From the NCBI RefSeq assembly GCF_000949295.1, contig NZ_JXYS01000066.1, positions 1 to 46,883 of the forward strand: DNA of 46,883 nt, written 5' to 3'. The notes below the pieces were generated by a model, which ran no database searches, was not told where the DNA came from, and saw nothing but the letters and a program-made list of their open reading frames with translations. This document shows, piece by piece, positions 27,453 to 46,883 of this stretch. The position numbers and the translations under genes were made by a program. Source of the DNA: Acidithrix ferrooxidans. Its GTDB lineage: Bacteria > Actinomycetota > Acidimicrobiia > Acidimicrobiales > Acidimicrobiaceae. Each line of letters begins with the position of its first letter. Within the stretch, counting starts at the first letter, position 1.

Positions 27453-28343
27453 CTACCTTTTTGCCTCAGAATGGCGTTGAGTAAAAGCGACAATCAGTCG
27501 AGATATCGCGATTAAAGCAAGGACGAAGATCACAAGTAACATTGCCGCGTCGAAAGAGAGCCTTTGGGCCGCTACGGTTGGTTGGTTGTAGAAGGTCCAC
27601 ACTGCATAGGTTAAATATCCCAGAGGAGAGTGGGTGAGGGCTAGCTTTGGTAGATTTTGTGAGTATCCGGCTGTGTACAGAAGGGGAGCCGTCTCTCCAA
27701 TTGAAATTGCTAGAGCGACTATCAGACCAGTTGCAATCCCTGGAAGGGCAGTTTTGAGTGAAATTCTTGTTAGGATTCGAGTCGGTTTGAATCCTAGGGC
27801 TTCTGCACCTTCTATGTAGGCTGTCGGGACCTGACGCAGCGCTACCTCAGTCGTCTTGGCGATATATGGTACGACCATTGCCGAAAGTGTCAATAGTCCA
27901 GCTCCTAGGGAAAAGCCCCAGTGAAGTCCAACCACTAGGGCCGTGTATCCAATGTAGCCAATGACGATCGAGGGTATTCCAGCTAAAACTTCAGATGACG
28001 AACGTAGAATTACAGCGGTTCGACCTTTTGCAAATTGTGAGAGATAGATACCAGAGAGGATTCCAATTGAGCCAGCGACCACCATCACCCCAGTGGTAAT
28101 GGTAGCCGTTCCAACGATTTCATTCTTTAGGCCGCCTCCCAAACCTACCCCGTTTTGCGTTATGACGCTCCATGAGAAGTGTGGTAGTGCACGAATGATC
28201 ACCTGAAGGACGATCCAAATCGAAGGTGCAATCACCAAGACAAGCGCGATAGAACATAAGACTATGACCGCCAGGTTGATAAGTTTGCGATTTCCACTGT
28301 GGCGTGAAGTATCCTGGCTCAATTTTTTAGACTCCTCTTCCAA
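27453..28343 (-). CDS. pstA: Phosphate ABC transporter permease PstA
   Basis: One of two membrane subunits of the high-affinity phosphate importer. The 296-residue protein has about six membrane helices and the ABC-permease coupling loop EALGFKPTRILTRISLKTAL. SGIYLSQFAKG and GIPSIVIGYIGY, typical of PstA, are also present. It overlaps the pstC end by 17 bases on the same strand, so the two are translated together. It is last in the pst order B-S-C-A. No phoU follows. Confidence 0.93.
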   Translation of the reverse strand: MEEESKKLSQDTSRHSGNRKLINLAVIVLCSIALVLVIAPSIWIVLQVIIRALPHFSWSVITQNGVGLGGGLKNEIVGTATITTGVMVVAGSIGILSGIYLSQFAKGRTAVILRSSSEVLAGIPSIVIGYIGYTALVVGLHWGFSLGAGLLTLSAMVVPYIAKTTEVALRQVPTAYIEGAEALGFKPTRILTRISLKTALPGIATGLIVALAISIGETAPLLYTAGYSQNLPKLALTHSPLGYLTYAVWTFYNQPTVAAQRLSFDAAMLLVIFVLALIAISRLIVAFTQRHSEAKR

Positions 28344-29391
28344 TCGGTAGCGACGTTGATGCGACTCGCCTCACGAGTAGGCGTGCGCCTACATTGGCAA
28401 GAAGTGTTATGAGCATCAGAATTAATGCCGCCTCGGCCAATGTCTCAACCGCTAGTCCGGTTGCGTCGGTCAGGGCTGAGTCAAGCTGACTTACAATTGT
28501 GGCCGCGATGGTCGTGAACGTGCCGTAGATATTCGTGGGATACGAACCTAGCACCACTCCTGAGACCATAGCTACCGCCATGGTCTCTCCAAGGGCTCTC
28601 GCAAAGCCCAAAACGGTAGCGCCGATAACACCGGCGGATATCCAAGGAAAGGTAACTTTTCTTGTTACTTCCCACTCCGTCATGCCAAGGGCAAATGCAC
28701 CTTCTTCGGCGAGCCTGGGAACTTGAGCTATCAAATCTCTGGTAGTCGATGCGATAATAGGAATAATCATTATTCCTAAAATTAAAGATGATGTCAAAAG
28801 CCCCTCACCGGCGCCAGTGCTACCTCTGAAGTATTTTAGTATGAAGATATTGGGGGCGTGGGACGCGATGACTGGATAGATGTCACGCGAAAGTAGAGGA
28901 CCGAGAGTTAAGGCACCCCACAGTCCAAAAACTACACTTGGAATGCCTGCGAGAAGCTCGAGGAATGCTCCGACAAATCCTCTAAGTCTTGGGTGAAGCT
29001 TTTTGGCCACAATGACCGCAGCGCCAACAGACAAGGGGATGGCGAAGATCAGGGCTATTACTGACGATTCGAGGGTACCAATAATCAAAGGAAGCGCACC
29101 ATAACTTGCAAGTAACGGGTGTTGAACCCCATTAGTAGTCACTGGATTTGCATAGAAGTTACCAGGTCGCCAATTGCGACCAATCAGAAAGCCGCCACCG
29201 TTGTACTTGATCGCCGGGTATGCCTTCTTGAAGAGAATCGTTAAAATCCCAATTAAAACCAAAAGTGGTACGCAGGTAGATAGTGCACTAATGACCGTAA
29301 TCGGACTCCATCGCCCCAACTTAGCCGGAATGAATTTTCCGTGATCGTCGGGTGAATTTGCCAAAGCGTCTTCAACAACAGATGTGGCCAT
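28327..29391 (-). CDS. pstC: Phosphate ABC transporter permease PstC
   Basis: The other membrane subunit. It has 354 residues, with a long N-terminal cytoplasmic stretch (about 35) before the first helix. GIPSVVFGLWGAL and the coupling loop EEGAFALGMTEWEVTRKVTFPW are typical PstC motifs. ATG 29391 is 125 bases after the pstS stop, a gap that holds a strong hairpin. It overlaps pstA by 17 bases. No lesions. Confidence 0.93.
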   Translation of the reverse strand: MATSVVEDALANSPDDHGKFIPAKLGRWSPITVISALSTCVPLLVLIGILTILFKKAYPAIKYNGGGFLIGRNWRPGNFYANPVTTNGVQHPLLASYGALPLIIGTLESSVIALIFAIPLSVGAAVIVAKKLHPRLRGFVGAFLELLAGIPSVVFGLWGALTLGPLLSRDIYPVIASHAPNIFILKYFRGSTGAGEGLLTSSLILGIMIIPIIASTTRDLIAQVPRLAEEGAFALGMTEWEVTRKVTFPWISAGVIGATVLGFARALGETMAVAMVSGVVLGSYPTNIYGTFTTIAATIVSQLDSALTDATGLAVETLAEAALILMLITLLANVGARLLVRRVASTSLPIGRGV

Positions 29392-29516: not shown

Positions 29517-30698
29517 TTAGCCAGCTTGGATCTTGTTAATTTGCGCAAGAGAAAGAGCAGCTACGGACGATGGCAGAGGTTGGAAATTGACCTGGCTTAG
29601 ATACGAGGCGGCATTCCCATGACTTGGATCGATCGCCCAGGTAAGTACGGATCTGATGGTGGCTGCTTTGTTCGCATCGGTTTGTGCTGTATTTACTATC
29701 GCGTATTCAAAGTTGATTATCGGATAAGACGCTGTCCCTGGGCCGTAAATAAGCGAGATCGCTTCGTTGCTAGGCACCTTGGCGATGAAGCTTTGGGCTT
29801 CAGCTTGAATGGAAGTTGGGGTTGGGACTACATATTTTCCGGCGGCATTTGAAATGGCTGCCATGGTAAGGTTGGCTTTCTGAGCAGACGATGCAAAGCT
29901 AACACCGACATATGCAATGCAACCCTTAGTGGCGCCGCATGTGGTCACCATTCCACCGTTCCCATTTGCTGATAGAGCAGTCGATACGGCTGGCCATGGC
30001 ACCGTGGTTCCATAGGATACGCTACTTCCCCATCCGCTTGGATCGACAGCTGAGAGATATTGCGTAAATATGAAGGTATCACCTGAGCCATCAATTCTGT
30101 GAACGGGGATGATTGCTAGGTGTGGCAATGTCGCCGAGGGATTTAGGGCTTTGATGGCCGGGTCGTCCCAATATTGAATCTTGCCCTGATAGATCTTTGA
30201 AATGACCGATCCGCTTAGATCAAGTTGTGTCGTTACTCCAGGGATGTTGTAGACGATCTCCTGAGCCGAGATAGCTAGGGGGATATTTACCAGTGTTGGA
30301 CTCTTGGTAGTTTGGGTGGAGGAGAGATATGCATCCGAGGCACCTATGTCGACAGTGGCTGAAGCAGCATCTGCTATTCCGGTCCCAGATCCCGTTCCCG
30401 CAGTAGTTATTGTAATGTTAGGAAATTGCTTTTGATAGTCGGGTGCCCAAAGGTTAAAGAGTGGATAAAGTAGAGTGGAACCGGTCTCTTGTATTGCAAC
30501 CTTTGCAGTCGGTGGATTTTCTCCTGATGCAAAGTTCGGTGCAGTAGTTGTTGAGGCTGACGGGGCGGCGGTCGTAGCTGCTGCTGTGGTAACGCTCGAC
30601 GAGTTTGACGACGATGACTAGGAGCTACCGCAAGCTGATGCGACCAACCCGCCTGACAGAAAGATGCCAGCGAGTAATAGAGGTTTTTTCGGCAACAT
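29517..30698 (-). pseudogene. pstS: Phosphate-binding lipoprotein PstS, interrupted by one in-frame amber stop
   Basis: PstS captures phosphate outside the cell for the PstCAB importer. From ATG 30698 (AAAGGAAA upstream) the frame reads a lipoprotein signal, GIFLSGGLVASACGSS. TAG follows at codon 27 (30618-30620), then about 365 uninterrupted codons to TAA at 29517. The rest is typical PstS: ETGSTLLYPLFNLWAPDY, the phosphate loop AGTGSGTGIADA, VDIGASDAYLS, RIDGSGDTFIFTQYLS, and a GNAASYLSQVNFQPLP end. No start codon follows the TAG until TTG 30128. The stop is in a Ser-rich linker (SSxSSSNSSS), where TCG would fit, so one C-to-A change explains it. Either a very recent lesion, a sequence error, or amber readthrough. 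Confidence 0.9.
30618..30620 (-). other. In-frame TAG (amber) codon in pstS
   Basis: This codon 27 of pstS is the only stop in 394 codons. It is four codons after the lipobox Cys23. TAG is used as a normal final stop elsewhere in this window (trpC, for example), so the code is not globally changed. Confidence 0.9.
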
Positions 30699-30746: not shown

Positions 30747-31574
30747 TTACCCGATACGTCCGGAGATGTAAAATTGGGTCTCTGGCATCTGAGGGTTTTC
30801 GAATATCTCCGAAGTCACTCCAGATTCCATTAACTTTCCGTCGAAAAAGAACATCGTGTAATCAGAGATTCGTTTGGCTTGAGCCAAGGAATGTGTCACA
30901 ACGATGAAGGTGATCTCTGGGACGAGCTTGGAAAATAGATTTTCTACGGCTTCCACAGAGATCGGGTCAAGCGCAGACGTGGGTTCGTCTAGCAGCAGGA
31001 CTTTTGGTTGCACGGCAAGACTTCTTGCCAAGCACAATAATTGTTGTTGTCCTCCAGAGAGTCTGAAAGGGGAATCATCCAAGCGATCATATACGGCTTT
31101 CCAAAGGCCGACCTTTTCAAGGGCGTCTTGAACGATCTCTTTGTATGCAGCGCGCGGAGCCATTTTGTGGGCTTTGATTCCGGCAAGTACGTTATCCTTG
31201 ATTGACATTGGAAAAGGATTTGGTCGTTGAAAAAGCATTCCTACTTGGCGGCGTAACTCTAGAAGGTCGATCTCCTTGGAGAGGACCTCTTGGTCAAGGA
31301 GATTGATGCTGCCTTTGGTCCAAAAGCCCGATACTTTGTCGTTTAGTCTGTTTACACTTCGTAAAAACGTAGTTTTGCCTGACCCTGTTGGTCCAATTAG
31401 GGAAACGATTGACCCTGTAGGCATCGCTAAATTTACATCTTGGATGACATGCTTGTCTCCGAAACCAATATCAAGATGTCGGACGTTGAGAATTGTTCTC
31501 GACGTACTGACATCTGTCCTTTGAGAGGTCTTATTGCCCGGATCCTCTTCGCGGTCTATAACCAAGTCTTTCAT
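30747..31574 (-). CDS. pstB: Phosphate ABC transporter ATP-binding protein PstB
   Basis: The ATPase that drives the phosphate importer. It has Walker A GPTGSGKTT, the Q-loop MLFQRPNPFPMSI (the RPNPFP segment is typical of PstB), signature LSGGQQQLLCLARSLA, Walker B VLLLDEPTSALDP, and the H-loop His in VTHS. ATG 31574 is chosen because GAGGGG is just upstream; ATG 31610 would add 12 residues without a site. An unusual polar N-terminal extension of about 25 residues precedes the ABC fold. It is the first gene of the pst operon here, whereas pstS is usually first. Confidence 0.92.
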   Translation of the reverse strand: MKDLVIDREEDPGNKTSQRTDVSTSRTILNVRHLDIGFGDKHVIQDVNLAMPTGSIVSLIGPTGSGKTTFLRSVNRLNDKVSGFWTKGSINLLDQEVLSKEIDLLELRRQVGMLFQRPNPFPMSIKDNVLAGIKAHKMAPRAAYKEIVQDALEKVGLWKAVYDRLDDSPFRLSGGQQQLLCLARSLAVQPKVLLLDEPTSALDPISVEAVENLFSKLVPEITFIVVTHSLAQAKRISDYTMFFFDGKLMESGVTSEIFENPQMPETQFYISGRIG

Positions 31575-31645
31575 TTGCCCCTCACCAAGGTGATGCCATT
31601 TGGTTTCCAAGTATTTCTTCGAACCTTGGTTATGAACTTAACGAG

Positions 31646-45769: not shown

Positions 45770-46148
45770 GAGGTCTCAGGCTTTTTCAGATCGCCCTTGC
45801 CTGTTGGGGTATATCTTCGAAGGAAGATTTTGTGACTGGTTTATCTTCAGACGAATCTTCCTAACCAGAGTCACTAGGAGGCAATTGCGCAATTCATAAT
45901 TCGACTCTTTCAGGTGGCATTTTTTGACTCAGAATGCAGGTACTATACCTTGTTGGGCATTAAGTGCGGACCTTAAAATCCAAAACGGGTAACAATCCAC
46001 TTATGCAAGTGTCTCCTAGGCCTTTGCCGAAGCCAAATCCTTCGAGCTATACATTTTTTAGCTGTTTGTATGAGGATAGAGGGACTTCGGATTTAAGTGG
46101 GGAATTTAGTCAGGTGTAGCCACGCACCAGGGGTGAGTTTGGGAGGGT
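45770..46148. other. Gap before the right-hand IS
   Basis: About 380 bases without a gene. It holds a nested set of complementary segments (45821-45874) and then the outer end of the ISL3-type element, whose exact left terminus I cannot fix without the right one. Confidence 0.4.
45821..45874 (+). repeat. Interleaved complementary segments (pseudoknot-like)
   Basis: AGGAAGATT (45821-45829) pairs with AATCTTCCT (45854-45862), and GTGACTGGTT (45832-45841) pairs with AACCAGAGTCAC (45863-45874, two-base bulge). The order is arm 1, arm 2, arm 1', arm 2', the layout of a pseudoknot rather than nested hairpins. It lies 52 bases after the methyltransferase stop. Confidence 0.5.
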
Positions 46149-46207
46149 CACAGGGGCTCTGCCAGAATGGGATAGTTCAACAACTCATCACTGGAGGGCC
46201 CCTGTGG
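46148..46207 (+). promoter_or_regulatory. Hairpin masking the transposase translation start
   Basis: CACAGGGGC (46149-46157) pairs perfectly with GCCCCTGTG (46198-46206), and flanking wobble and CT/AG pairs extend the stem to about 12-13. The right arm contains the end of the ribosome binding site GGAGGG (46193-46198) and the GTG start (46204-46206). In read-through mRNA both would be hidden, limiting transposase production. Confidence 0.6.
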
Positions 46208-46883
46208 AAGAAAATCCTATTCGAATTGCCGAGATCTTGCTCGATCTTATGGATGTCAATTTGATTGGCATCGAGGATCTGGGTGACCAAGGTTCAAAGA
46301 CACCCCTTCGGGTCCATATCGAGTGTCGAGGCGAACGACCAAAATGCCCAGTATGTAATGGGATGAGTTATTCCAAGGGAGGCTCACTAGTAGAGCTGAT
46401 TGATCTACAAAGCTTTGGCCGTGCCGTCAGACTCATCTGGCACAAACGCAGGTGGGAGTGCAAGGATGGGAACTGTTCCGCCCCGTCGTGGAGTGACGTG
46501 GACACTAGGATCGCAGCTCCAAGACTCAAGCTCACCGATAGGGCAGCTAGATTCGCAACCCGAGTGGTTGGTAGAGATGGTCGATCGGTGTCATCGGTAG
46601 CCAGAGAGCTCGATTGTGATTGGCACACGATCAATGACGCTGTCATTGCCTATGGGACTCCCCTCGTAGAGGATCCAAGTCGCTTTGGTAAGGTTCGTGC
46701 ACTCGGATTAGATGAGACCTTGTTTTGTCGCGAGGGTCGCTATCGGACCCAGAAGTGGTCTACCTCAATCGTGGACGTTACGAGTCCAACCCTTCTTGAT
46801 GTCGTGCCTGGTAGAGAGGGAAAGGAGCCAAAGAAGTGGATAGCCAGTCAGTCCAAGGAGTGGCGTGATGATATCAAGTGGGG
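46204..46883 (+). CDS. ISL3-family transposase, N-terminal part
   Basis: Opens at GTG 46204 with GGAGGG five bases upstream and runs off the right edge of the window after about 226 codons, with no stop. The N-terminus has a zinc-finger-like set, CRGERPKCPVCNG and WECKDGNCSAPSW, typical of ISL3 transposases. A helix-turn-helix region follows (VSSVARELDCDWHTINDAV) and then the first catalytic Asp in RALGLDETLF. The frame is intact so far. It is a different family from the IS at the left edge, so the two do not form a simple composite transposon. Confidence 0.9.
   Translation, partial: MEENPIRIAEILLDLMDVNLIGIEDLGDQGSKTPLRVHIECRGERPKCPVCNGMSYSKGGSLVELIDLQSFGRAVRLIWHKRRWECKDGNCSAPSWSDVDTRIAAPRLKLTDRAARFATRVVGRDGRSVSSVARELDCDWHTINDAVIAYGTPLVEDPSRFGKVRALGLDETLFCREGRYRTQKWSTSIVDVTSPTLLDVVPGREGKEPKKWIASQSKEWRDDIKW

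Follow-up and report, generated by a model that had tools for sequence, protein, structure and literature searches.

An in-frame amber codon after the lipobox of pstS in Acidithrix ferrooxidans, probably a recent nonsense mutation

The described proteins closest to the gene analyzed here are the substrate-binding subunits (PstS) of PstSCAB phosphate importers, specifically those of the Mycobacterium tuberculosis PstS-1 type (1pc3). The A. ferrooxidans pstS resembles this type in the alignment of the protein body, in a lipoprotein signal accompanied by a Ser/Thr-rich linker, and in the adjoining pstC, pstA and pstB genes, but differs from it by an in-frame TAG between the lipobox and the body. 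Pyrrolysine and amber-suppressor decoding is similar insofar as UAG lies within an open frame; A. ferrooxidans differs in that a CUA tRNA was not found, the PylS profile scored below its cut-off, and UAG is absent from the relatives examined. The third comparison is to point nonsense pseudogenes of isolate genomes, with which the locus shares the single substitution-type stop, the intact remainder of the gene and the open frames in relatives. Unlike the usual cases of this kind, the interrupted gene is the apparent sole PstS hit in a genome with no Pit or NptA match, so that a high cost of its loss is to be expected.

The pstS frame and its internal stop codon

We analyzed a 46,883-nucleotide stretch of the A. 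ferrooxidans genome, contig C66 (hereafter, the window), in which the pst genes and the parts of the interrupted frame are arranged as follows:

27453..28343, minus strand: pstA, permease, with TAG as its own stop codon (best match TIGR00974, 192.5 bits, just below the cut-off of 193.45)
28327..29391, minus strand: pstC, permease (TIGR02138, 280.5 bits; cut-off 196.45)
29517..30698, minus strand: pstS frame interrupted by one TAG, for the substrate-binding lipoprotein of the phosphate ABC transporter (retranslation, TIGR00975, phmmer to 1pc3)
29520..30617, minus strand: PstS body of 366 codons downstream of the TAG, intact, with no second stop or frameshift (profile, phmmer, relatives)
30618..30620, minus strand: in-frame TAG, codon 27, where genus relatives have a Ser or Thr codon
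30621..30698, minus strand: first 26 codons, with a putative lipoprotein signal peptide and its lipobox (VASAC), the predicted sole product of normal termination (translation; relatives similar)
30747..31610, minus strand: pstB, ATPase (TIGR00972, 331.7 bits, just below the cut-off of 343.2; best of 189 families)

Codon-by-codon retranslation shows that the pstS frame extends on the minus strand from the ATG at 30698-30696 to the terminal TAA at 29519-29517 (394 codons) without a frameshift, and that the TAG at 30620-30618 is the only lesion in it, interrupting at codon 27 what would otherwise be a continuous frame from the signal peptide to the end. The frame begins with a putative lipoprotein signal followed by a Ser/Thr-rich linker, and the Cys at codon 23, within the motif VASAC that we take to be the lipobox, places the TAG four codons beyond the Cys. 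Beyond the TAG, an in-frame ATG, GTG or TTG first occurs at 30128 (TTG). The part of the frame after the TAG matches the PstS equivalog family of NCBIfam (TIGR00975) with 345.7 bits (cut-off 205) across profile positions 1-314 of 315, and PF12849 with 113.3 bits (cut-off 27); in a phmmer comparison, it aligns with residues 19-362 of the 366 residues of M. tuberculosis PstS-1 (E = 4e-116). The frames of pstC, pstA and pstB, which adjoin pstS, are all open. These results agree with a sequence-only reading of the window, which had described 394 codons with a single TAG and no frameshift, the TAG four codons past the lipobox Cys, an intact PstS following it, no start codon before TTG 30128, and an otherwise intact importer.

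Scans for promoters and terminators around the pst operon remained at the chance level (7 promoters found vs. 6.4 expected, and 4 terminators found vs. 4.2 expected). Among ten more frames of the window, mostly located between long ORFs, a Pfam scan yielded no match for 8 and no split family. An open frame at the end of the window (46120-46881, plus strand) matches an ISL3-type transposase (PF14690, 25.6 bits, cut-off 25.5), and scores below the cut-off for PF13542 (22.9 bits vs. 27.4).

Conservation of pstS in relatives and the age of the lesion

We searched 60 genomes, including that of A. ferrooxidans, for pstS, and obtained matches in 36. Among the 11 other members of the genus, 9 contain a pstS match, and the two genomes without one are 65% and 73% complete. 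In all 9 matched genus relatives, pstS is open, including the signal peptide and the linker, and the signal peptide and Cys are similar to those of A. ferrooxidans. The equivalent of codon 27, the fourth codon past the Cys, encodes Ser (6 relatives) or Thr (3 relatives) according to both protein and DNA alignments, and TAG is found at this position in none of the 9. Thus, the TAG is private to the A. ferrooxidans genome among the genomes examined. A TGA inside the pstS match of one searched genome (G043) is the terminal stop of that gene itself and does not represent a second interrupted pstS.

We further compared nine pstS loci from named contigs, out of 51 loci in a collection from which records of the A. 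ferrooxidans genome itself may be missing. These nine copies are identical to those of the nine relatives already found and hence provide names but no fresh evidence. The order pstB-pstS-pstC-pstA is kept in all nine contigs. Among the four Pst subunits, pstS shows the highest identity in 8 of the 9 named relatives (74-82%, in alignments that omit the linker; 67-72% for pstC), which indicates that pstS was under constraint until lately. Of the 51 named pstS loci (L081-L131), 20 belong to Alicyclobacillus, a genus of acidophilic Bacillota, with identities of 47-55%, and this share may reflect transfer between acidophiles.

Synonymous sites are saturated between A. ferrooxidans and all nine genus members (pS = 0.742-0.832), so dN/dS on the A. 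ferrooxidans branch is not measurable, and amino-acid changes alone were compared. In relative-rate counts of A. ferrooxidans against five of the nine genus relatives with three outgroups, chi-square was below 0.9 in 14 of 15 comparisons, and the largest value was 3.81 (37 changes in A. ferrooxidans vs. 22 in the relative L010, with L014 as the outgroup). At the 96 alignment columns that are invariant in 19 relatives, A. ferrooxidans departs at 2, compared to 0-1 for the other nine genus members and 0-9 for the more distant relatives; at the 230 columns shared by the other nine genus members, it departs at 14, compared to 0-3 for the others. These departures at conserved columns are explained by a longer branch, and slight relaxation would fit them too. 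Given that amino-acid change after the TAG is no faster than in the relatives, the lesion looks young. The absence of further stops is, by itself, a weak clock: of the 3528 possible single changes in the pstS frame, 135 create a stop, and the lack of a second stop reaches a probability of 5% only after about 77 neutral changes. When all data are considered together, constraint on pstS appears to have held until recently.

A single lesion together with open orthologues in close relatives is the pattern of a point nonsense pseudogene. Accordingly, our preferred explanation, which we consider probable, is that the TAG is a recent single-base nonsense mutation in pstS of the sequenced A. ferrooxidans Py-F3 culture. 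Ribosomes would start at 30698, produce the signal peptide and lipobox, and halt at codon 27, such that little or no phosphate-binding lipoprotein would be made, with at most traces arising via ordinary background misreading of UAG. Under this explanation, the TAG would truly be present in the cells, it would be of recent origin (perhaps in culture), and PstS would be largely lost. Of the three options offered by the sequence-only reading, the evidence favors a fresh lesion: the rest of the gene is intact, its counterparts in relatives are open, and its rate of change is not raised. The published coverage lowers the likelihood of a base-call error, and readthrough finds no support, as detailed in the following sections.

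Phosphate uptake and the deposited sequence

A search of the A. ferrooxidans genome with the PstS protein matched one place only. With the PBP_like_2 profile, one more match emerged, on contig C89, at 28.2 bits (cut-off 27), but we rejected it as a second pstS: the 304-aa protein reads, from its sequence, as a putative LysR-type regulator. A single pstC scored above the cut-off, and neither the PHO4/Pit family nor Na_Pi_cotrans (the NptA family) had a match in this genome. Among eight genus relatives examined for Pit, several of them incomplete, it was not found in six and was found in two (G004 and G006); overall, the Pit search gave a match in 3 of 13 genomes, A. ferrooxidans included among the 13. 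Since neither a convincing second copy of pstS or pstC nor a match to the Pit or NptA family turned up, complete loss of PstS should be costly. The earlier statement that losing PstS would matter therefore holds for the families tested, and the second pstS for which it had proposed to look did not turn up in convincing form with either the protein or the profile search.

Because the loss should be costly, some weight is left for explanations in which functional PstS is made. The first of these is a base-call or assembly error, in which case pstS is intact in the cells and the TAG is confined to the deposited contig. Beyond the apparent role of Pst as the sole phosphate importer among the families tested, this alternative is consistent with the lack of clear decay in the remainder of pstS and with the nature of the assembly, a 2015 draft of 183 contigs generated by Newbler and MIRA (PMC4417699). 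The genome analyzed here comprises 4,019,867 bases in 183 contigs and is rated 97.98% complete; the published draft describes A. ferrooxidans Py-F3 as an isolate, with 4.02 Mb, 183 contigs and 46 tRNAs (PMC4417699). The published average coverage of 203x Illumina and 18.4x 454, a genome-wide figure, counts against a sequencing error and makes a wrong base call unlikely (PMC4417699). Furthermore, the reading frame of pstS is kept, which argues for a substitution rather than an indel of the 454 homopolymer type, and pstS matches one place in the genome, which makes a collapsed repeat unlikely. We consider an error in the deposited sequence to be a tentative alternative, of fairly low probability.

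If the TAG is real, little or none of the only evident phosphate-binding protein is made by the sequenced stock of the type strain. This would matter for work on phosphate, arsenate and growth yield with this strain, and would raise the question of how its cells take up phosphate. In the case of an error, an intact key gene is masked by one position of the reference genome. In the openly accessible A. ferrooxidans literature, including proteomics and pstS, the titles and abstracts that we found do not mention a pstS lesion; the words phosphate and pst do not occur in the main text of PMC8305228. For another isolate, Acidithrix sp. C25, a PacBio genome of 4.10 Mb has been published (PMC8223813). 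At 4.0 Mb, the genome of A. ferrooxidans compares to 1.9-2.8 Mb for the 11 other genus genomes returned, which are 65-95% complete.

Decoding of UAG

The remaining alternatives assume a real TAG that is read through. In one of these, useful PstS is made via leaky misreading of UAG by near-cognate tRNAs, at a level that suffices in phosphate-replete medium. The intact PstS body and the seeming need for the importer are compatible with such leakage, and a Ser-rich linker should tolerate any residue. In addition, tRNA-Lys(CUU), tRNA-Lys(UUU) and tRNA-Arg(CCU) of A. ferrooxidans are drawn with 4-bp anticodon stems. In PMC13092985, stems of this length are linked to near-cognate reading, as demonstrated for tRNA-Trp at UGA, and are reported in 11% of tRNA-Lys(UUU) genes. 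We compared 20 tRNA-Lys loci from 21 genomes, A. ferrooxidans included, and observed the 4-bp stem in 13 of 14 tRNA-Lys(CUU) loci (including that of A. ferrooxidans) and in 2 of 6 tRNA-Lys(UUU) loci of relatives. Being shared with relatives, the 4-bp tRNA-Lys stem is not specific to this genome and is not an adaptation to the pstS TAG.

Observations on termination at UAG also weigh against leakage. The release factor RF1 gene is free of internal stops and scores 485.8 bits (cut-off 423.25). In a sample of 53 stretches of the genome, the 87 distinct ORFs that are 150 aa or longer end in TAG (33), TGA (29) or TAA (25), such that TAG is the commonest stop (before the removal of 10 repeats, the counts were 39, 31 and 27 of 97). 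The median run to the next stop in the 87 ORFs is 11 codons after TAG, 12 after TGA and 17 after TAA, that is, there is no unusual extension beyond TAG. One long ORF in the sample has a TGA followed by 160 open codons, which we read as probably the next gene lying in frame. A 101-base segment around the pstS TAG, folded once, forms a stem-loop no better than those of shuffled sequences (z = 0.61). Taken together, these observations render leaky translation an improbable explanation.

Dedicated suppression or recoding, whereby a suppressor tRNA, pyrrolysine or regulated readthrough inserts a residue at the TAG, is favored by the intact downstream frame and by nothing else. The sequence-only reading had raised programmed or suppressor-tRNA readthrough and proposed a genome search for amber suppressor tRNAs. 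That search, in which 150 of 213 first-look candidates were scored and 48 tRNA-family matches obtained, revealed no CUA anticodon among the 46 distinct tRNAs reported by ARAGORN, a count equal to the published 46 (PMC4417699). The PylS profile reached 21.9 bits in this genome, far below its cut-off of 178.15, and none of the 60 ABC_tran matches in the genome contains an internal stop. The sampled ORFs and the ABC_tran matches show no sign of general TAG decoding in A. ferrooxidans. These results, along with the uninterrupted RF1 gene, the common use of TAG as a stop, the lack of a stem-loop beyond chance, and the absence of the TAG from all 9 genus members in which pstS was matched, speak against the readthrough option, and we regard dedicated recoding as extremely improbable. 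The pstS TAG is weak evidence for new decoding.

A variant that we deem highly unlikely is that the TAG is stable in the species and the sole phosphate-binding protein is made by UAG misreading alone, with no dedicated suppressor, such that uptake is throttled at translation. In that variant, such throttling might, for example, limit trouble from arsenate or metal phosphates in mine water. An event of an ordinary kind appears to account for the pstS TAG: most likely a recent nonsense mutation, then an error in the deposited sequence, then leaky readthrough.

Beyond the 46 tRNAs, the two remaining tRNA-family matches are a tRNA-like stretch and a partial copy of a tRNA-Arg. The tRNA-like stretch (G000:C26:100185-100283) scores 37.9 bits against RF00005 and is reported by ARAGORN only when an intron is allowed and the threshold is lowered, in which case it is labeled as a 72-base tRNA-SeC with a 28-base intron and the anticodon TCA. 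It may be an unusual tRNA that reads UGA, or else a tRNA pseudogene. We considered selenocysteine in this context and dismissed it, given that a TCA anticodon would read UGA, not UAG, and has no bearing on the pstS TAG. The partial copy (G000:C7:66086-66133) is an exact 48-base duplicate of the 3' half of tRNA-Arg(TCG), the whole gene for which lies at C26:86744, and resembles the distal end of an element that inserted into a tRNA gene.
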